A stretch of DNA of 61,913 nt from Anaerolineales bacterium (GTDB lineage: Bacteria > Chloroflexota > Anaerolineae > Anaerolineales > UBA4823), in assembly GCA_003105035.1 (NCBI GenBank), contig PQAL01000032.1, forward strand, positions 1 through 61,913, in the 5' to 3' direction. The notes under the pieces are model-generated. The model ran no database searches. It had not been told where the DNA came from and worked only from the letters and a program-made list of their open reading frames with translations. The translations under genes were made by a program, and so were the position numbers. Shown here one piece after another: positions 13,278 through 35,888 of the stretch (positions within the stretch are counted from its first letter, which is position 1; each line of letters starts with the position of its first letter).

Positions 13278-14627
13278 ATGTTTATTCCTCATACAGATGC
13301 CGATCGGCAGGCAATGCTGCAAACGATCGGCATTGACAGGCTGGAAGACCTGTTCAGGGATATTCCAGCCAAGCACCGGTTCCCAAGTTTAGACCTACCG
13401 CCTGCCCTAACTGAGATGGAAGCTTCAGCCTCGTTACAGGATATCGCCCAGGCGAATGAAAGTGTGCGAGAATTATCCTGTTTTCTGGGCGCAGGTGCAT
13501 ATAACCACTATGTTCCGGCTGCTGTTGATGCGATCATTAGACGGGGAGAATTCTTGACGGCTTATACACCCTACCAACCCGAATTGTCTCAGGGCACCTT
13601 ACAAGCAATTTTCGAATACCAAAGTAATGTCGCGGCTCTGACGGGTATGGAGGTCTGTAATGCCTCCCATTATGATGGTGCGACTGCAGTGGCTGAGGCT
13701 GTCAACATGGCTTACGCAAATTTCCGGGGGAAACGCAACAAGGTCATCCTTTCTCCGGCACTCCACCCGCAGTACCGCCAGACTGTCCGGACTTATGCTG
13801 AAGGAACACCACTCCAAATCGTCGGTGATGAGCCTGGTGCAGATTTGCTGGCTGATCCCACCTACCTGATACCCCAGGTCGATGTGAATACTGCCCTGGT
13901 GGTGGTCCAATATCCCGACTTCTTTGGGCGAATTTATGACTATACGAACCTGGCAGAAGCGGTGCATTCCATGGGCGCCTTGCTGGCCGTTTCCGTCAAC
14001 CCAATCGCTTTGGGATTGCTCAAAGCCCCAGGATTTATGAATGCTGATATTGTCACAGGTGAAGGCCAACCTTTGGGAATACCCCTATCTTTCGGTGGGC
14101 CATATCTGGGTTTATTTGCTACCCGCAAAGAATATGTGCGAAAAATGGCTGGACGCCTGGCAGGTGAAACGGTTGATAACCGCGGCCAGCGAGCTTATGT
14201 TTTAACCTTAACTGCGCGTGAGCAGCATATCCGTCGCGAAAAAGCAACCTCGAATATCTGCACCAACCAGGGATTAATGGCCCTGGCCTCCACAGTATAT
14301 ATGAGCCTGTTGGGCAAAAACGGTCTGCGCCAGGTCGCCGAGCTCTGCTACCACAAGGCGCACTATGCTGCGGAAGTCATCTCCCGGCTGCCTGGATATT
14401 CCCTGTGGTCTAGCACGCAGTTCTTTAACGAATTCGTAATTAAGACCCCTGCACCAGTTTCAGAAGTAAATGATCTACTGCTTGACCATGATATCCTGGG
14501 AGGATACGACCTGAGCCAGGATTATCCTACCCTTCCCAACCATCTGCTTGTGGCAGTGACAGAAATGAATTCCCGCGAGGATATTGACCAGTTCGCGGAA
14601 GTGCTGTCGGAGGTGTCAAATGGGTGA
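13278..14627 (+). CDS. gcvPA: Glycine dehydrogenase (decarboxylating) subunit 1
   Basis: 449 residues. This is the N-terminal half of the P protein in its two-subunit form, which decarboxylates glycine with pyridoxal phosphate and passes the aminomethyl group to GcvH. Family landmarks include CFLGAGAYNHYVPAAV, FLTAYTPYQPELSQGTLQ, NASHYDGATA, GEGQPLGIPLSFGGPYLG and the REQHIRREKATSNICTNQ segment. The PLP lysine is on the partner subunit. It overlaps gcvPB by 8 bases. Confidence 0.95.
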   Translation: MFIPHTDADRQAMLQTIGIDRLEDLFRDIPAKHRFPSLDLPPALTEMEASASLQDIAQANESVRELSCFLGAGAYNHYVPAAVDAIIRRGEFLTAYTPYQPELSQGTLQAIFEYQSNVAALTGMEVCNASHYDGATAVAEAVNMAYANFRGKRNKVILSPALHPQYRQTVRTYAEGTPLQIVGDEPGADLLADPTYLIPQVDVNTALVVVQYPDFFGRIYDYTNLAEAVHSMGALLAVSVNPIALGLLKAPGFMNADIVTGEGQPLGIPLSFGGPYLGLFATRKEYVRKMAGRLAGETVDNRGQRAYVLTLTAREQHIRREKATSNICTNQGLMALASTVYMSLLGKNGLRQVAELCYHKAHYAAEVISRLPGYSLWSSTQFFNEFVIKTPAPVSEVNDLLLDHDILGGYDLSQDYPTLPNHLLVAVTEMNSREDIDQFAEVLSEVSNG

Positions 14628-16083
14628 GCCTCAATTATGTGAGATCTCCGTGACTGGTCGCCAGGGGGTCAGCTACCCTGCTCCTGACGTGCCACTCAGC
14701 CCCCTACCGGACGGTTTGCTTCGTGACGATCTGCCCATGCCTGAGTTGTCCGAGCTGGATGTGATCCGCCACTACACGCGCCTCTCTCAGCTGAACTACA
14801 GTATCGATACAGGATATTATCCATTGGGTTCCTGCACGATGAAATATAACCCGAAGATCAACGAAGAAACGGCTCGCTATTCTGGTTTTGCTCTCACCCA
14901 TCCGCTCCAACCTATCGAAACCGTCCAGGGCAACCTTGCACTGATGTACACCTTGCAGGAGTGGCTAAAAGAGATCGCCGGATTTGCCGGGGTAACTTTA
15001 CAACCAGCTGCTGGTGCACACGGTGAGCTGACCGGTGTGCTGATGATTCGAGCCTACCACCGCTCTCGCAACGATAACAAGCGGGATAAGATCCTCATTC
15101 CCGATTCAGCTCATGGCACTAACCCGGCTACATCGGCGATGAGTGGGATGCGGGTTGTTGAGATCAAGTCGGATGCCCGCGGCAATGTGGATCTGGAGGC
15201 ACTCCGCCTTGAATGTGACGACACCCTGGCGGGCTTGATGTTGACCAATCCCAACACCCTGGGTCTCTTTGATGAGCACGTGGAGGAAGTCATCCGCCTG
15301 GTCCACGCTGCTGGTGGATTGGTGTATGGAGACGGAGCGAACCTGAATGCGTTACTTAGCATTATTCGGCCAGGAGATGTGGGTTTCGATGTGATGCACT
15401 TCAATTTACATAAGACCTTCTCCACGCCTCATGGCGGTGGTGGACCAGGGTCAGGCCCTGTAGGTGTTGCCGCTCACCTGGTCGATTTTCTCCCATCACC
15501 GTTAGTAGCCATCCTTGAAAAAGGGGACGATGAGCTGCCACCCTTATACGGTTTTGTCACTCCCTCGAAAACCATTGGCAGAATGAAGTCATTTCACGGC
15601 CACTTCGGCATGCTCGTCCGTGCATTTACCTACATCAGCATGTTTGGCAGTGCTGGCTTGCGTCAAATTGCCGAGCATGCAGTACTGAACGCCAACTACC
15701 TGCTGGCCTTAATCAAAGATACCTACCACCTCCCATATGACAGGCTGTGCATGCATGAATTCGTTGTTGAAGGTCAGTGGCCCGATGCCCCAGATATCCA
15801 TGCCCTGGATATATCCAAACGTCTGATGGACTATAAGTTCCATCCACCCACCAACTATTTCCCATTGATTGTTCATGAGGCGTTGATGATCGAACCCACG
15901 GAATCTGAAAGTAAGGAAACCCTGGATGCATTTGCAGACACGTTGAAGAAAATCGCCGAAGAAGCCCATAAAGAACCAACACTGCTTAAGGAAGCCCCGC
16001 ATATCACCCCAGTGGGCCGGCTTGACGAAGTGAAAGCTGCCAAAGAATTAGTGTTATGTTGTGGAGTGGGTTCCCTGGAATAG
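14620..16083 (+). CDS. gcvPB: Glycine dehydrogenase (decarboxylating) subunit 2
   Basis: 487 residues from ATG 14620, preceded by GGAGGTG; the frame is open further upstream inside gcvPA, but those codons are not family-like. This is the PLP-binding half of glycine decarboxylase, with the Schiff-base Lys in NLHKTFSTPHGGGGPG and the YPLGSCTMKYNPK, PDSAHGTNPAT and YGDGANLNAL motifs. It overlaps the end of gcvPA by 8 bases, consistent with translational coupling and 1:1 assembly. A strong terminator follows within 12 bp. Confidence 0.96.
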   Translation: MGEPQLCEISVTGRQGVSYPAPDVPLSPLPDGLLRDDLPMPELSELDVIRHYTRLSQLNYSIDTGYYPLGSCTMKYNPKINEETARYSGFALTHPLQPIETVQGNLALMYTLQEWLKEIAGFAGVTLQPAAGAHGELTGVLMIRAYHRSRNDNKRDKILIPDSAHGTNPATSAMSGMRVVEIKSDARGNVDLEALRLECDDTLAGLMLTNPNTLGLFDEHVEEVIRLVHAAGGLVYGDGANLNALLSIIRPGDVGFDVMHFNLHKTFSTPHGGGGPGSGPVGVAAHLVDFLPSPLVAILEKGDDELPPLYGFVTPSKTIGRMKSFHGHFGMLVRAFTYISMFGSAGLRQIAEHAVLNANYLLALIKDTYHLPYDRLCMHEFVVEGQWPDAPDIHALDISKRLMDYKFHPPTNYFPLIVHEALMIEPTESESKETLDAFADTLKKIAEEAHKEPTLLKEAPHITPVGRLDEVKAAKELVLCCGVGSLE

Positions 16084-29504: not shown

Positions 29505-30149
29505 TCAGGCGAGATCTTCCATCACAAGGTGATTCTGGATTGCATAATGGGTTAGCTCAGCATTCGTTCTCATATCCATTTTGAGCAGGATTCGTGCTCG
29601 ATAGGTGCTGACCGTTTTGGGACTCAGAGACAATTCACTAGCGATTTCCCTGATCTCCTTGCCCGAGGCGATCAAGCACAAAACTTGATATTCCCGGTCA
29701 GATAGTGCTTTATGCAGCGGTTGATCGCTATCACGTCTGGCATAACTGACAAGTTCTTCAGCCACCGCCGCACTGATATATTCGCCTCCCGAAAGGATTT
29801 TTTGGAATGCTTCGACCAGCTCTTCAGGAGCACTCTCTTTATTCAAATATCCAGCTGCCCCCACACGGATGGTCCTGAGTGCATATTGGTCTGCTGGGTA
29901 AATGCTCAGGACTAAGACCGGGATACTTGGGTGCTCCTGTTTTATTTGTTTGAGCATCTCGATGCCATTACCTTCTGGCATGGCTAGATCCAAAACCAGA
30001 ATGTCCCATGCCTCAGCATTAATTTGATCCCTCAACTCGTGAAAATTTTGCGCTTCACCAAAGATTGCTTGAGGGTAAGCTTCGCTGAGGATTTGCTTGA
30101 TGCCCTTTCGGACGACTGCATGATCATCAGCCAGCAGGATTTTAATCAA
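29505..30149 (-). CDS. NarL/FixJ-family response regulator
   Basis: 214 residues, TTG start with AGGTGAG just upstream. The receiver has LLADDHAVVRKG, the phosphoacceptor Asp in LVLDLAMPEGNG, the Ser in LVLSIYP and the Lys in GYLNKES. The LuxR-type DNA-binding domain has LSDREYQVLCLIASGKEIREIASELSLSPKTVSTYR. It lies 8 bp after the histidine kinase gene, so the two are a matched two-component pair. Confidence 0.93.
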   Translation of the reverse strand: MIKILLADDHAVVRKGIKQILSEAYPQAIFGEAQNFHELRDQINAEAWDILVLDLAMPEGNGIEMLKQIKQEHPSIPVLVLSIYPADQYALRTIRVGAAGYLNKESAPEELVEAFQKILSGGEYISAAVAEELVSYARRDSDQPLHKALSDREYQVLCLIASGKEIREIASELSLSPKTVSTYRARILLKMDMRTNAELTHYAIQNHLVMEDLA

Positions 30150-30157
30150 CTCTCACC

Positions 30158-32290
30158 TCAATTGATAGGTTTTTCTTCATCAGTAGATAGCGGAAATGTA
30201 ACTCTCAAAGTCGTTCCATGTTGCGGATCTCCATTTATCTCGAATGTTCCGCCAAATTGTTTTGCTCTTTCACGCATTCCGAGGAGCCCCAATGAATGAT
30301 TGTTATTGATTTCGTCAGCCTTAATCCCCTTGCCGTAATCCTTAAGCTCAAGCAATATCTGGTTACCGTCGGTTATCATACGAATATCCAGCTGGTCGGT
30401 CTCAGCATGCTTGGCTACATTCGTCAATCCTTCCTGCAGGATTCGGTAAATCGCCAGGGCTTGTTCACTCGATAAATTCTGTTCATCATCCAACTGCGAG
30501 ATCGTACACTTTATCCCGCTCCTCCTCTCGAAATCGCGCACCTGCCATTCGACCGAAGCTGCCAATCCCAGGTCATCCAACATCCCGGGTCGCAATTCTG
30601 CTGCAATCTGTCGCACTGACACGATTGTGTTGTTCAATTGAGCCAGAATATCCTTGGTCTTTTCACCCAAGGTTTCATCTTTTTGTCCAATTTGCGTTGA
30701 AATCCAGGCCAGGTCGAATTTTATGCCGGTTAAGGATTGACCCAGCTGGTCATGCAGTTCACGAGCAATGTTGATGCGCTCTTCTTCCCTTGTCGACTGG
30801 AGACTGGCAGCAAGCTCTTGAAACTGATGGGCGGACCTCTCAAGGTCGGCTAGTGTTGTTAATCTTTGCTGGTAAGCGAGGGCATTCTGAATCGCAATCG
30901 ATGCAACAGGCGCGAGTGTCAGTAGCATTTCCTGGTCATTAATTGAAAAACCTTCCGAATCTTGCTTGTTGCGAATGTCAAAATAAGCGATTACTTCTCC
31001 AACTGTATCAAGAATCGGAGTACAAATTACTGACCGAAGGTCATTATTAATTTCCAAGTCCCTGCAAATCAATGGATCATTTTCAGCATCGCTGGTTCCA
31101 TAAGGAACCTTATATTTCAATACCCACCCTGGGATACCTTCACCAATAGCCCAGGTATGGTCAAAGGGGATTTCCCGTCCCTGCTGGAAATACTTTTTAA
31201 CCCTCATCCCATCACTGGTACGCAATCCTGCAAAGCCACTTTCGCCACCGACCATTTGGATAGCTTCTTGGGCAAGGGCATCCAGGATCACATCCACGTC
31301 CAGGGTGGCATTTAATTTGCTGCTGATCCTGAAGAGAGTCTGAAGCATTGCTTGAGATTGATCAACGGGTTGTCCTGTGACAGGTGTCCCCATTGCTTGC
31401 TCACTGACTGTATGACGATCGGTTTCTAAATAACCAGGTATGATTCGTTTGATGTGAATTGCCAGATGTAACGCCAGATTCTCAGCCAAAACCAGCGAGT
31501 TCTGATCAAAATGCCGGCCAGATTCCGCATAAATGAATATGCTTGCTCCGATGGGTTTGCCATAAAAATTTAGCGGAACGATCATATAAGAGGTTATACC
31601 TGCTTGCGCTGCCCGGCGCATTGGATTTACTTCCACGACCAACTTCGCTCTTCCTGATTGTAAAACAGCCGGCAGCCCATCAACCTCATCATTGGTCAGA
31701 TCATTCTCGAACCATTCATACACCGCAGGATTATTGAGCACTTCCTGTGGTGTGATTACCTTTTGTTCTGGCAAACCTTCAGGATCAATAACATACACAC
31801 CACACCAGTCTGTAAAAAGTGGGGCAAGAGAATTTGCGATGCGTCGAATAGCCTCGCTTATATTTCCACCATCTTCAGAAGTTGTATAGGTTTGAGCCAG
31901 GATTTGATTAATCATCCTGACCTGCTCCACTCGGGTTGCGTCGGATGGGGACCAAACAATAAAAAATAATTTCTGCGATCCAACCTGGGCTGGCACTATG
32001 ATCGAGTCAATGATAGCTGTGATGCCGTTTTCGTTTCTTATTTGGAGGATGCTGAACCTTAAGTTATTTATTGGTGGCAAGTCGGTGTTTGGTCGAATTA
32101 CATCGGTATAAGAGGATGATGTAATGATATCTGAAATGCTTTTCCCTACGAGCCTGTCTGTACCATCTCCATATTGTGCTTTGGCCAATATATTCGCGCG
32201 TAAAATAATCCCTTTTTCGTCTACGACGAGTAAAGCATACTCGATTGCATCCATCAATCTTTCTGCTAGCGTAAGTTGTTCACTTTCCAT
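30158..32290 (-). CDS. GAF-domain sensor histidine kinase (HisKA_3/NarX-like)
   Basis: 710 residues with no membrane span, so a cytoplasmic sensor. An N-terminal PAS domain (~10-120) is followed by two GAF-type domains (~130-290 and ~325-480). The second has the CxP-like RSVICTPI stretch. The HisKA_3 dimerisation box has the phosphoacceptor His in INIARELHDQLGQSLTGIK. The HATPase domain has EGLTNVAKHAE, DYGKGI and GLLGMRERAKQFGG. Partner regulator immediately downstream. It is divergent from the CBS/YggT/GlsB stress cassette, whose promoters carry a shared dyad that this system could control. Confidence 0.93.
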   Translation of the reverse strand: MESEQLTLAERLMDAIEYALLVVDEKGIILRANILAKAQYGDGTDRLVGKSISDIITSSSYTDVIRPNTDLPPINNLRFSILQIRNENGITAIIDSIIVPAQVGSQKLFFIVWSPSDATRVEQVRMINQILAQTYTTSEDGGNISEAIRRIANSLAPLFTDWCGVYVIDPEGLPEQKVITPQEVLNNPAVYEWFENDLTNDEVDGLPAVLQSGRAKLVVEVNPMRRAAQAGITSYMIVPLNFYGKPIGASIFIYAESGRHFDQNSLVLAENLALHLAIHIKRIIPGYLETDRHTVSEQAMGTPVTGQPVDQSQAMLQTLFRISSKLNATLDVDVILDALAQEAIQMVGGESGFAGLRTSDGMRVKKYFQQGREIPFDHTWAIGEGIPGWVLKYKVPYGTSDAENDPLICRDLEINNDLRSVICTPILDTVGEVIAYFDIRNKQDSEGFSINDQEMLLTLAPVASIAIQNALAYQQRLTTLADLERSAHQFQELAASLQSTREEERINIARELHDQLGQSLTGIKFDLAWISTQIGQKDETLGEKTKDILAQLNNTIVSVRQIAAELRPGMLDDLGLAASVEWQVRDFERRSGIKCTISQLDDEQNLSSEQALAIYRILQEGLTNVAKHAETDQLDIRMITDGNQILLELKDYGKGIKADEINNNHSLGLLGMRERAKQFGGTFEINGDPQHGTTLRVTFPLSTDEEKPIN

Positions 32291-32421: not shown

Positions 32422-32440
32422 TGTAGGATAAATTCCTACA
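32422..32440. promoter_or_regulatory. Dyad operator, copy 1 (upstream of CBS gene)
   Basis: TGTAGGATAAATTCCTACA has perfect 7-bp arms (TGTAGGA/TCCTACA) around a 5-bp centre. It matches the element at 34022-34040 in 16 of 19 positions. A related half site, TTACCTACA, lies ~15 bp downstream. The spacing to the -35 box is identical at both promoters. Confidence 0.65.
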
Positions 32441-32484
32441 ACAGTTTTCTTAGTTTACCTACAAGACTTTCAGTCCTCTGCTGA

Positions 32485-32513
32485 TTGCTGCCGCTGTTTG
32501 TGTCAGATATAGT
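32485..32513 (+). promoter_or_regulatory. Promoter of the CBS-domain gene
   Basis: TTGCTG (32485-32490), a 17-bp spacer and TATAGT (32508-32513). The flanks CTGATTGC and GATATAGTG recur in the promoter at 34085-34113. Confidence 0.62.
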
Positions 32514-32587
32514 GAATCTCATGGTTAGCAGGATTGTCCGAGACAGTCCTTGCTGTTAATGATCATAGTTCAGAAAAGGAGATAAGA

Positions 32588-33325
32588 ATGTCTAAAGCAT
32601 ATGAAGTTATGACCCAATCACTAGCCACCTGCTCACCCGATGACAATGCCGCCCATGCAGCTTCAATTATGTTGGACAGAGACATTGGAGATGTGCTTGT
32701 CGTTGAACAAGGAAAACTACGTGGAATTGTCACGGATCGAGACCTGGCACTCCACACTCTGACAAACCACAGCGATCCCCATACACTCCAAGTAAGGGAT
32801 ATCATGTGTGATAAGTTGATTGTTGGTAATCCAGATTGGTCGATGGCAAGAGTAGCCAGGACGATGGCAAAGCATCAGATAAGGCGTCTACCGATTGTGG
32901 AAGATGGCCAATTGCAGGGGATCGTCTCTCTGGCAGATATTGCTCGCAATGAAAACCGCAGAGGTGTGATCGCCAGCTCCTTGAAGGCAATTTCATCACC
33001 TATGGTTGAATCAAAAGCGAACGGAAAGGCTCACATTGGAGCGTTAGTGGGTTTAGGAATTGCTGCATTAACTTCATCCGCGTTGATCTTCCTTACCTGG
33101 AATCGCAGTGGGAAAGAGCTTAGAAAGCAAGTCGCAGATACCAGGCTCTATCACTCGACCCAGCAAGCAGTTGAGTCTGTAAGAGACAAGGTTGACGAAG
33201 CTGCCTCAAGTAAGGCTGCAAAGGATTTTCGTCAGCGGATGCGGTCCAATATGAAAGACCTGTCATATCAGCTTCCGAGGATTGAATATAAACAACCAAA
33301 ACGAAGACCTGCCTGGTTTCAATAA
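32588..33325 (+). CDS. Tandem CBS-domain protein with a membrane segment
   Basis: 245 residues from ATG 32588, which has AAAGGAG seven bases upstream; the frame opens at a TTG 54 bp earlier that lacks a ribosome site. Two CBS domains (~5-125) include DIGDVLVVEQGKLRGIVTDRDLA and RRLPIVEDGQLQGIVSLADIA; such pairs bind adenine nucleotides. A hydrophobic segment (~158-180, IGALVGLGIAALTSSALIFL) and a charged C-terminal tail follow. It is the first gene of the stress-like cassette. Confidence 0.88.
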   Translation: MSKAYEVMTQSLATCSPDDNAAHAASIMLDRDIGDVLVVEQGKLRGIVTDRDLALHTLTNHSDPHTLQVRDIMCDKLIVGNPDWSMARVARTMAKHQIRRLPIVEDGQLQGIVSLADIARNENRRGVIASSLKAISSPMVESKANGKAHIGALVGLGIAALTSSALIFLTWNRSGKELRKQVADTRLYHSTQQAVESVRDKVDEAASSKAAKDFRQRMRSNMKDLSYQLPRIEYKQPKRRPAWFQ

Positions 33326-33460
33326 CAAGTAAATTGAACTTCACTTAATACCAATGTTTTGCCTTGCATAAACTACAGGCTAGGCAAAATGAAGTGAAAT
33401 ACTCAAATTTGGGGTCAGGTAAATCGTAAATATCGACCAGCTTATTACAGGTTTATATCT

Positions 33461-33489
33461 AAGCAGGGGTTTGTTCTCAGCCCCTGCTT
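33461..33489 (+). repeat. GC-rich hairpin upstream of the YggT-like gene
   Basis: AAGCAGGGG (33461-33469) pairs with CCCCTGCTT (33481-33489). There is no T tract after it. It ends 34 bp before the YggT start and could terminate, attenuate or stabilise the transcript coming from the CBS gene. A weaker stem, TTTTGCCT/AGGCAAAA, lies at 33357-33389. Confidence 0.45.
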
Positions 33490-33523
33490 ACCTGGGGGTT
33501 GATTGTAAAGAAAGGAAGCAACG

Positions 33524-33952
33524 ATGGCTGAAACAAATCAAGTTTCTGAAATAAGGTCAGAAGAGTGGGAACCTGACTTAACCCACCGGAGTAGAGCCCA
33601 AATAGCCACGCAAGTGGTGGCGTTGCTTGTTTCCATACTTGAGGCACTACTCGCATTGCGTTTCCTGCTAAAGTTGATAGCAGCCAATCCACACAGCCCG
33701 ATTGCGGTATTCATCTATGCAGTCACCGATTTGCTCCTCACGCCATTTGCAGGGTTAACTGCTACCCCTTCAGCTGACGGCATGATTCTGGAGATATCGA
33801 CTCTTATCGCTATGCTGGTCTATGGCTTGGTCGGATGGTTTCTCCAAAGGTTAACCTGGATCGTCTTGTACCGACCACGCGGTTCAAAAATAGAAGTCAC
33901 TCGCACCCGCAAGCATGAAGATCGTTCCAGGAAACATCAGACTCAATCATAG
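33524..33952 (+). CDS. YggT-family membrane protein
   Basis: 142 residues. A charged N-terminal ~30 residues precedes two to three membrane segments with the YggT-like pattern ALLALRFLLKLIAANPHSPIAVFIYAVTDLLLTPF, and a strongly basic tail (RPRGSKIEVTRTRKHEDRSRK). YggT proteins are small inner-membrane proteins associated with osmotic tolerance or cell division in other phyla. The family assignment rests on the FxxxTDxxLxPF pattern. Confidence 0.75.
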   Translation: MAETNQVSEIRSEEWEPDLTHRSRAQIATQVVALLVSILEALLALRFLLKLIAANPHSPIAVFIYAVTDLLLTPFAGLTATPSADGMILEISTLIAMLVYGLVGWFLQRLTWIVLYRPRGSKIEVTRTRKHEDRSRKHQTQS

Positions 33953-34021
33953 CAGTGGATCTTTTGGTAAGTAATAAATCGAAACGCTAAGAATTCAGAC
34001 AGACTGTTAGACATGTGTATT

Positions 34022-34040
34022 TGTAGGATAAATCATTACA
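34022..34040. promoter_or_regulatory. Dyad operator, copy 2 (upstream of GlsB/YeaQ gene)
   Basis: TGTAGGATAAATCATTACA keeps the left arm of copy 1 exactly and the outer part of the right arm. Its start is 63 bp upstream of the start of the -35 box, the same as copy 1. Confidence 0.62.
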
Positions 34041-34084
34041 AACATACTCACAATCGGCTGACGATAAAATCATCCCCCCACTGA

Positions 34085-34113
34085 TTGCCACCAATAATAT
34101 ACGGAGATATAGT
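34085..34113 (+). promoter_or_regulatory. Promoter of the GlsB/YeaQ-like gene
   Basis: TTGCCA (34085-34090), a 17-bp spacer and TATAGT (34108-34113), with the CTGATTGC and GATATAGTG flanks shared with the CBS promoter. Confidence 0.65.
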
Positions 34114-34159: not shown

Positions 34160-34414
34160 ATGAACATTATCATATATTTACTTGTCGCTGCTGTAATTGG
34201 ATGGATTGCCACAGATTTGATGCATGACCGATCAAACCTTCTGATCAATATCGTTGTGGCAGTCATCGGGGCGTTCGTGGCAGGCTATCTGCTAAGCCCT
34301 ATCTTTAAAGTTGGTACCATCAATCAAGCTATCACGATACCGACGATGATCGTCACATTACTAGGGGCGATCATATTACTGGCGATCCTAAGGTTATTCC
34401 GCCGAGTTTTTTAG
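34160..34414 (+). CDS. GlsB/YeaQ/YmgE-type stress-associated membrane protein
   Basis: 84 residues, three hydrophobic segments. VAAVIGWIATDLMHD, NIVVAVIGAFVAGYLL and VTLLGAIILLAILRLFRR are typical of the transglycosylase-associated (GlsB/YeaQ/YmgE) family. These small membrane proteins are commonly induced by general stress; their biochemical role is not known. GAAAGGAGA precedes the ATG. Confidence 0.82.
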   Translation: MNIIIYLLVAAVIGWIATDLMHDRSNLLINIVVAVIGAFVAGYLLSPIFKVGTINQAITIPTMIVTLLGAIILLAILRLFRRVF

Positions 34415-34468: not shown

Positions 34469-34501
34469 GCTCTGCCAACCGAGGACCTCGGTTGGCAGAG
34501 C
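34469..34501. repeat. Near-perfect 33-bp palindrome upstream of the CsbD gene
   Basis: A 16-bp perfect stem, positions 34469-34484 (GCTCTGCCAACCGAGG) and 34486-34501, with a one-base centre. It ends six bases before the GGAGG of the CsbD gene and has no T tract. As RNA it would form a very stable hairpin beside the ribosome site; as DNA it is a possible protein-binding site. Confidence 0.7.
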
Positions 34502-34518
34502 AACAATGGAGGTTTGAT

Positions 34519-34743
34519 TTGGCTATGGCACTTGATAATATTAAAACAAAATGGTCGATACTCAAACCGGATGTACGCAAACATTGGGGGAAAATCACCG
34601 AAGATGATCTTACTCATATTATCGGTTCTCAAGAAGAGCTGATAAATATCCTTCGGAAGCGTTATGGTTATGGAAAACAACAAGCGGAAATTGAGATTAA
34701 TGACTGGTTACTCCAACACCACGAGCATCATGTGGGAGAGTAA
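34519..34743 (+). CDS. CsbD-family stress-response protein
   Basis: About 74 residues from TTG 34519, six bases after GGAGG; ATG 34525 is the alternative, with a 12-base spacing. The core WSILKPDVRKHWGKITEDDLTHIIGSQEELINILRKRYG is a good match to the CsbD family of small, soluble, helical general-stress proteins. The extended C-terminus QAEIEINDWL occurs in many members. It sits in the stress cassette after GlsB/YeaQ. Confidence 0.85.
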   Translation: MAMALDNIKTKWSILKPDVRKHWGKITEDDLTHIIGSQEELINILRKRYGYGKQQAEIEINDWLLQHHEHHVGE

Positions 34744-34791: not shown

Positions 34792-35364
34792 ATGAATATA
34801 CAAACTTTAATACCTGTATTGATTGTAGTCCTGGTTGTTCTTGTGGTCGTGGTGATACTTGCATTCTTGATACTAAGAGGCCGTAGCCAGCGACTTAAAA
34901 GCAAGTTTGGTCCGGAGTACGATTACACTGTTCAAAAACTTGGTGATCGCCGCCAAGCTGAAGCCGATTTGAAGGACAGAGAAAAATGAGTAGTAAAACT
35001 AGATATCCATCCACTGGGGGACGAAGTAAATAGAAAATATCATGATGAATGGAAATCTATCCAATCAAAAATCGTCGATGATCCTTCTGAAGCTGTTGAG
35101 CAGGCCAATCGATTGGTGACAGAAGTGATGATTGCCCGCGGTTTTCCAGTGGCAGACTTCGAGCAGAGATCCGCTGATCTGTCAGTTATCTACCCAAACC
35201 TTGTGCCTGGTTACCGAGACGCACAAGCTATCCTAATCAAAAAACGAGATGGAGGCGCTTCAACTGAAGAGCGTAGGCAAGCAATGGTAAACTTCCGTAC
35301 GTTGTTTGACGAATTGGTCGGCATTGCCCATCAAAAAGAATCTAGCATGGAGGCAGTAAAATGA
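34792..35364 (+). pseudogene. Membrane-anchored unknown protein interrupted by an in-frame TGA
   Basis: One continuous frame of 191 codons is split by TGA at 34987-34989. Before it come a single membrane span (PVLIVVLVVLVVVVILAFLIL) and SKFGPEYDYTVQKLGDRRQAEADLKDREK. After it, in the same frame, come VVKLDIHPL and a helical domain (WKSIQSKIVDDPSEAVEQAN ... FRTLFDELV). The pieces read as one protein of a family I know as an unnamed membrane-anchored protein with Arg/Lys at this position, which a CGA-to-TGA change would explain. TGA is an ordinary stop elsewhere in the window. A sequencing error or truncated but functional halves are alternatives; an internal GTG/ATG near 35113 could restart the C-terminal half. 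Confidence 0.75.
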
Positions 35365-35888
35365 AACCGAATGAAATCCCAGACGATCCGCGCGAGGATA
35401 TTTCTACTCCACAAGAACCTGCTTCGTCCATCAATCAGAATAGGATGAACGAACCATCGGATATGCCTGGTCAAATGAACACACCTCAGACTTCAATTCC
35501 AATCACTCGCTCAGAAGGACATATCAGAGGAGCTATTCAAAATCAGCCCACAATAAATGCTATGTTTGGTGCTGAGCAGGCAGTGCCACCCAAGCAGAAG
35601 CAAGAAGAACCTCACGCCGAAGAAACATGGTTCTTAAAAGCTGATGCGGATGAAATGCGATCACGCTGGAATACCATACAGATACAGTTCGTCGAATCAC
35701 CTTGCACAGCAGTCGAACAAGGTGATGCTTTGATAGGCGAGGTAATGGAGCGCTTCTCGCAGATGCTGTCTGACCATCAAGAGTCTTTAAACCAACAGTG
35801 GATCAACCATGATGATATTACGACAGAGGAGTTGCGTATGACCTTACTAAATTACCGTATTTTGCTTGAGCACTTGCTAAAGCTTTAA
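35361..35888 (+). CDS. Unknown protein related to the C-terminal half of the preceding gene
   Basis: 175 residues. The first ~90 are polar, Pro/Gln-rich and probably disordered. The last ~80 (WNTIQIQFVESPCTAVEQGD ... LLNYRILLEHLL) align by eye with WKSIQSKIVDDPSEAVEQAN ... MVNFRTLFDELV of the broken upstream gene. It overlaps that gene by four bases (ATGA). It has no membrane span, unlike its relative. Function unknown; the pair looks like a tandem duplication with different N-termini. Confidence 0.7.
   Translation: MKPNEIPDDPREDISTPQEPASSINQNRMNEPSDMPGQMNTPQTSIPITRSEGHIRGAIQNQPTINAMFGAEQAVPPKQKQEEPHAEETWFLKADADEMRSRWNTIQIQFVESPCTAVEQGDALIGEVMERFSQMLSDHQESLNQQWINHDDITTEELRMTLLNYRILLEHLLKL

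Follow-up and report, generated by a model that had tools for sequence, protein, structure and literature searches.

The window analyzed here, a stretch of 61,913 nucleotides from the genome of an Anaerolineales bacterium (G000), contains the gene of a NarL/FixJ-family response regulator adjoined by that of a histidine kinase and, divergent from this pair, a group of genes with two similar promoters (Table 1). The regulator consists of an N-terminal receiver domain (PF00072, E 4e-26) and a C-terminal LuxR-type (GerE) helix-turn-helix domain (PF00196, E 3.4e-16). The kinase is of the HisKA_3 type (PF07730 and PF02518), and Pfam found only GAF, HisKA_3 and HATPase_c domains in it; the orthologue in G038 has an extra PAS domain. 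The GAF part had no match in the PDB at E <= 1e-10, where only the kinase cores of VraS and DesK were found. The tandem GAF domains suggest a cytoplasmic redox, gas or small-molecule cue.

Table 1. Genes, candidate regulator-binding arrays and core promoters in the window. Unit centres are given relative to the predicted transcription start site.
Feature	Position	Strand	Remarks
NarL/FixJ-family response regulator	29505..30149	-	receiver + LuxR-type HTH; proposed array-binding activator
Histidine kinase	30158..32290	-	two GAF domains + HisKA_3/HATPase_c; putative cognate kinase of the regulator
Array 1 (CBS promoter), unit 1	32422..32440	+	TGTAGGATAAATTCCTACA, perfect 7-5-7 dyad; centre about -89
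Array 1, unit 2	32445..32463	+	right half ACCTACA conserved, left half degenerate; centre about -66
Array 1, unit 3	32468..32486	+	TTTCAGTCCTCTGCTGATT, abuts the -35 region; centre about -43
Core promoter 1	32485..32513	+	TTGCTG-17-TATAGT, -10 at 32508-32513; absent from the consensus scan list
Two-CBS-domain protein, 245 aa (target 1)	32588..33325	+	PF00571; G383 orthologue 53% identical, in the same place
YggT-family membrane protein	33524..33952	+	PF02325; between the two arrays; homologues in the G038 cluster
Array 2 (GlsB promoter), unit 1	34022..34040	+	TGTAGGATAAATCATTACA; centre about -89
Array 2, unit 2	34045..34063	+	right half GCTGACG, left half degenerate; centre about -66
Array 2, unit 3	34068..34086	+	AATCATCCCCCCACTGATT, abuts the -35 region; centre about -43
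Core promoter 2	34085..34113	+	TTGCCA-17-TATAGT, -10 at 34108-34113
GlsB/YeaQ-type (transglycosylase-associated) membrane protein (target 2)	34160..34414	+	PF04226
CsbD-like protein	34492..34743	+	downstream of GlsB; Pfam score 27.2 against a cut-off of 40
Small genes p65, p83, p175	34792..35888	+	no Pfam family; G383 homologues behind an array of their own

The YggT gene may be co-transcribed with the CBS gene, and the CsbD-like gene probably belongs to the GlsB operon. Between GlsB and CsbD lies a perfect inverted repeat, CCAACCGAGGACCTCGGTTGG (34475-34495), which is possibly a processing or partial termination site. The small genes p65 and p83 (34792-35364) share one frame that is interrupted by a single stop codon at 34987-34989, and the homologous stretch of G383 is one open frame of 195 aa (L068:14952-15539). 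The split could be due to a nonsense change or a sequencing error, or the gene could be a split one.

A sequence-only reading of the window had noted that the two promoters carry the same 19-bp dyad at an identical distance, and the measurements agreed with it. The dyads at 32422 and 34022 are alike at 16 of 19 positions, TTGC follows 63 bases after the dyad start in both copies, the -10 box ends at base 92 from the dyad start, and the flanks CTGATTGC and GATATAGTG are common to both promoters. TATAGT starts 86 bases after the dyad start in both cases. The stretch between dyad and promoter had been described as different in the two copies. The letters do differ, but the stretches are not unrelated, since a second conserved element stands at the same offset in both, CCTACA at 32458 and CTGACG at 34058.

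The signal is the composite at fixed spacing, and the dyad alone is unremarkable. With up to 3 mismatches, TGTAGGATAAATNNNTACA matched three times in the window, at the two sites and at one further place with 3 mismatches, while 0.45 matches were expected and three matches were reached in 0 of 100 shuffles. Throughout the 4.45-Mb genome, TGTAGGAT followed by TATAGT 70-90 bases later was found only at the two window sites; the other strand had 0 occurrences, and the reversed pattern gave 0 + 0. The palindrome TGTAGGA-N5-TCCTACA alone (up to 3 mismatches) had 2 matches in the window versus 1.84 expected, and perfect 7-5-7 inverted repeats occur at seven places in the window. Promoter-like hexamer pairs were as frequent in the window as expected in a consensus scan, which picked up the promoter at 34085 and missed the one at 32485. 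The loose dyad was rejected as a genome-wide regulon motif, because it is not enriched but has fewer matches than the reversed control (93 + 106 versus 263 + 264). The concern that the dyad might occur at random is thus justified for its loose form, whereas the composite, unique to the two sites, is unaffected. A gapped composite pattern was found in 38 of 151 relatives, with the reversed control at least as frequent in many rows of the comparison, and in the own genome it gave 2 + 0 matches versus 6 + 6 for the reversed control; the pattern was therefore uninformative.

Two other readings of the dyad were discarded. It was listed as a transcription terminator by a scan, but the upstream gene on the plus-strand side runs the opposite way, and relatives do not retain the perfect hairpin. 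The TGTAGGAT half resembles a lux box, but the spacing of the half-sites differs.

Conservation was analyzed in relatives, above all in G038 (Anaerolineae bacterium fen_1073), G383 (Chloroflexi bacterium HGW-Chloroflexi-10) and G400 (Thermoflexales bacterium BIN20). Among 400 genomes of the order, three have an orthologue of the kinase (E <= 1e-90), namely the own genome, G038 and G383. The loci were scored with the window dyad, CTGATTGC and GATATAGT, shifts of several bases being allowed. The kinase loci of G038 and G383 yielded three copies each, all with zero shift from the window spacing and scores of 5-8; elsewhere in the five sources the best score was 10.6, except for one overlapping shift in the window at 9.2. 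No copy of the window-derived consensus was found in L069 and L070. The stretch from the dyad to CTGAT, which had not been used in the scoring, proved to be conserved, with GCTTACA at offset 35 and TCAG at offset 48. When the CBS protein was used as the marker (E <= 1e-20), 4 of 61 genomes were found, including the own genome and three distant ones, and a contig scan with this protein revealed no relative.

A model of eight sites (R1; the two window sites and six copies from relatives), built from sequence only, was then searched against whole genomes. Outside its training set it found G038 C1:39091, seven sites in G383 (C9:21028, C9:22826, C9:66222, C9:85952, C19:59402, C79:11073 and C38:1841), several in G400 and two in G395, and the downstream genes are unlike each other. 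Over 400 genomes of the order, six were matched at E <= 0.001, four strongly (G000, G038, G383, G395) and two weakly (G287, before a GlsB-like gene, and G060). At E <= 0.001 there are 4 arrays in G038 and 10 in G383. G400 has 6 long and 6 compact ones, whereas the window genome seems to have only two, its other R1 matches having E = 0.34. A matrix made exclusively from 20 sites of other genomes ranked 34022 first (49.1) and 32422 second (38.4) in the window; the next place reached -30.6, and the best of 60 shuffled windows reached -10.6. A non-window matrix without unit 1 still picked exactly 34022 and 32422. The conservation upstream of CBS and GlsB genes in relatives that the sequence-only reading had called for was found, together with the regulator.

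The architecture was derived from a column-against-column comparison of 22 gap-free sites (comparison A6). Two sites with one-base shifts were left out (G383 C38:1841 and G400 C1106:935), as were G287, which was reserved as an independent case, G383 C9:37562 with its E of 0.0033, the partial array of G060, all 6 compact sites, and the weak G400 matches C1277 and C1287. The array consists of 19-bp dyads with a half-site of about GCTTACA, whose starts are 23 bp apart, followed by a TATAGT-like -10 box. In the 22 sites, the half-site (A/G)CTKAYA is found on the plus strand at offsets 12, 35 and 58 and on the minus strand at offsets 0 and 46. Units 1 and 3 are 7-5-7 dyads, and unit 2 retains its right half; its left half is degenerate, which counts against the array reading. 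The half-site period of 23 bp corresponds to about two helical turns. Unit 3 ends at offset 64 and the -35 hexamer starts at offset 63, so that the last dyad abuts the -35 region. The -35 hexamer is poor in most sites, with TTGTCA in the kinase-adjacent arrays of G038 and G383, and the -10 register of core promoter 1 is conserved in relatives. The earlier placement of a dyad at about -88 was right about the upstream position, but the dyad is not a lone site; it is the first of three phased units.

Unit 1, which lies furthest upstream, is the most conserved unit, conservation being used here as a stand-in for affinity. The conservation of units 2 and 3 among the later-found sites was partly imposed by the search model, and in the first eight sites that of unit 2 is free of this bias. 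A matrix of unit 1 only, scanned over 142 offset and strand positions, ranked +35 first, +58 second and -46 fourth; the third rank was taken by a position overlapping the -10 box, above -46, which counts against the array reading. When the half-sites at +35, -46 and +58 were summed with a matrix from 20 non-window unit-1 dyads, no more than 14 of 20,000 shuffles reached the sum of the real sequence in any of the 22 sites.

G400 has six compact arrays, each of which lacks exactly one 23-bp unit. The distance from the dyad start to CTGA is 36 in these arrays versus 59 in the long form, and the core promoter is still in phase. The left half of unit 2 in the compact arrays ranked 7th of 106 positions, which counts against the array reading. 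A compact-form model applied to 10 genomes gave strong matches in G400, and matches elsewhere were weak or coincided with long arrays; a search for compact arrays in the own genome found none (best E 0.28). One array of G060 can also be read as two full dyads 23 bp apart.

These results bear on the idea that the conserved element is the core-promoter signature of an alternative sigma factor, CTGATNGC-17-GATATAGT, without any activator site. In favour of this idea, the conserved columns include the -10 region GATATAGTA and CTGAT, and a sigma-70-family gene of G400 lies downstream of a compact array. We nevertheless regard it as very improbable. The -10 box varies among sigma-70-like forms (TATAGT, TATGTT, TATCAT), unit 1, more than 60 bases upstream, is more conserved than the -10 box and the right half of unit 2 about equally so, CTGAT is accounted for as a half-site of unit 3, and the promoter stays in phase although a 23-bp unit can be absent.

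Resemblance of the two promoters by descent, through local duplication or the copying of a mobile element, is scarcely credible, although some sites seem to point that way. The G383 copies f/j and b/i are alike over the spacer too and look duplicated, and one G383 array precedes an unassigned ORF that may be part of a transposase, for which a Pfam search found nothing. On the other hand, identity ends at the array edges, many spacer columns carry little information, and the copies front unrelated genes at identical spacing in genomes of different families. A different repeat was seen in G034, where a palindromic element, TGTAGGACAACTCA(A/T)TGAGTTGTCCTACA, or near copies of it stand at six listed places (L056 and others). 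It is apparently a dispersed repeat that is unrelated to the array.

The GAF kinase/NarL pair had been named as the nearest candidate regulator, and its regulator gene tracks the array. Orthologues of the regulator (E < 1e-100) were found in 4 of 13 genomes, all of which have strong arrays: the own genome, G038 (72% identity to the window's regulator), G383 (68%) and G400 (71%). An array stands beside the divergent kinase gene in 4 of 4 genomes that have a kinase orthologue and the regulator. The four regulators form one clade in the tree (support 100/99), G572 comes next (83/88), and the fork joining G060 is not well supported. Array model R3 (E <= 0.01) matched three out of 400 genomes sampled from the phylum, G000, G038 and G572, and all three are among the five in which the regulator was found at E <= 1e-65 in a sample of 400 that is apparently the same draw; the other two are G462 and G518. 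G572 belongs to the same phylum but not to the same class. Its array is weak (19.3 bits), starts 70 bases beyond the point where the regulator match ends and is followed by an ice-binding-like gene, and a search among 151 relatives of G572 matched only G572 itself. The array of G060 is flanked by a regulator homologue (56% identical) on one side and by a GlsB-like stretch on the other.

Not all genomes conform to this pattern. The regulator homologues of G401, G462 and G518 are 46-50% identical and no array was detected in these genomes, which counts against the linkage. The recognition helix of array regulators is KT(V/I)STYR, and it is of the same kind in the array-less homologues of G462 and G518. 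Conversely, G395 has two strong arrays and no regulator at E <= 1e-40; this genome is 84% complete, and the regulator is perhaps missing from the incomplete assembly. In G287 (L132 7644-7739), a diverged array with a perfect outer dyad, TGTGGGATAAGTACCCACA, precedes a GlsB-like gene. The best regulator match in this genome has only E 2.4e-43, and the array is perhaps a co-evolved variant.

The arrays could be real and yet be bound by another regulator, the kinase/regulator pair being only a neighbour or itself a target. G395, with arrays and no detected regulator, would be in line with this, and the kinase/regulator pair might itself be controlled by the array in the intergenic region beside the kinase gene. 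This alternative appears unlikely to us. Strong arrays occur together with a regulator orthologue in four genomes, of which three belong to different families, the arrays of G572 and G060 lie directly behind the regulator homologue, and the dyad geometry and the recognition helix fit a NarL-type dimer. At the level of sequence, the array, its spacing, its conservation and its linkage to the regulator are established.

The proteins encoded downstream of arrays in relatives were analyzed with Pfam, and 6 of 29 had no family. The families found behind arrays, those of the window included, were CBS, transglycosylase-associated (GlsB), CsbD, YggT (as the second gene), AI-2E transporter, DUF1003, ice-binding-like, undecaprenyl diphosphate synthase, diacylglycerol kinase, pyridine nucleotide-disulphide oxidoreductase, thymidylate kinase, sigma-70 factor, PAS-GAF histidine kinase, CHRD, PDZ and rubrerythrin (below the cut-off); CHRD and PDZ follow weak sites, and the GlsB match of G287 is below its cut-off. 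GlsB homologues with 81% (G383) and 71% (G038) identity likewise lie downstream of an array, as do CsbD genes in G038, G383 and G400. The CBS, YggT, GlsB, CsbD and small p-genes recur near the regulator, but not every gene in each genome. The proposal that the CBS and GlsB/CsbD promoters form one mini-regulon gained support from the conserved arrays beside regulator orthologues. The CBS, GlsB, CsbD, DUF1003, AI-2E and ice-binding genes are likely targets. For several arrays, the first convincing start codon is some 290-580 bases further downstream, and therefore, the assignment of those targets is tentative. A stress function is suggested by the names of the target families.

On C1226 of G400 (L114), a compact array at 15915-15992 lies 439 bases before the start codon of a sigma-70-family gene, and another at 14387-14464 lies 256 bases before that of a PAS-GAF histidine kinase, hinting at a regulatory cascade. 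Ice-binding-like genes (PF11999) were found behind arrays at G383 C19:59402 (L110) and at G572 C347:6060 (L180), the latter outside the class of the window.

The architecture has a counterpart in BvgA of Bordetella, a regulator of the NarL family. At the fha promoter, three BvgA dimers are bound head-to-head every 22 bp on one face of the DNA, with the high-affinity site furthest upstream and the last dimer abutting the -35 region, and six dimers are bound at another promoter (PMC7250471). The arrays share with fha the repeated dyads, the last of which abuts the -35 region, and the strongest site (judged by conservation) furthest upstream; they differ in the period of 23 versus 22 bp and in the GCTTACA-like half-site, the fha primary site being given as TAAGAAATTTCCTA. 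The sensors differ as well. The window kinase is a GAF-domain HisKA_3 protein without a BvgS-type sensor, it has neither the periplasmic Venus-flytrap domains nor the phosphorelay of the hybrid kinases of BvgAS and EvgAS, to whose family the pair was not assigned, and the putative targets are stress and envelope genes. The regulator is 27% identical to E. coli EvgA over 160 aligned positions and shares the helix core KTVSTY (EvgA KTVSTYK), but orthology is not supported, EvgA having a very long branch in the tree. It resembles VraR/LiaR, DevR (DosR) and NarL (PDB 5hev, 3c3w, 1a04) in domain order and family. The kinases of DevR, DevS and DosT, are GAF-GAF-HisKA_3 proteins, and the DevR regulon includes a CBS protein; the DevR box differs from the window array. 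The phased multi-dimer architecture is thus already known, and the regulator subfamily, the motif and the regulon appear to be new, as judged from a limited search of the open-access literature, in which no description of them and no paper on a regulator of CsbD/GlsB-type stress genes in Chloroflexota was found.

Taken together, we propose, with a probability of roughly 0.8, that the response regulator would bind to the arrays as a row of dimers and activate sigma-70 promoters. The GAF-domain kinase would phosphorylate the NarL-type regulator, binding would nucleate at the strong outer dyad at about -89, and the weaker units at about -66 and -43 would be filled by cooperation. The last dimer, placed against the -35 region, would then bring in sigma-70 RNA polymerase at a promoter whose -10 box (TATAGT) is good but whose -35 hexamer is imperfect. 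Activation by contact with RNA polymerase is suggested because the last dyad overlaps the -35 region and two units lie further upstream. Binding, activation, phosphorylation, the start sites and the stress signal are what we infer from these features.

A broader reading, which we put forward as quite possible but tentative, is that a cytoplasmic GAF kinase and a NarL regulator form an undescribed stress system of Chloroflexota, in which the number of 23-bp dyad units (three or two) in modular arrays would set the strength or order of induction. The targets would be scattered envelope, CsbD/GlsB and ice-binding genes, with sigma-factor genes added in one genome. With two-unit and three-unit forms both occurring naturally, the effect of dimer number on promoter output can readily be tested, and the regulator now named, the exactly delimited candidate array and the list of targets are open to immediate testing. 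The results suggest that a BvgA-type phased multi-dimer promoter exists in a distant phylum.
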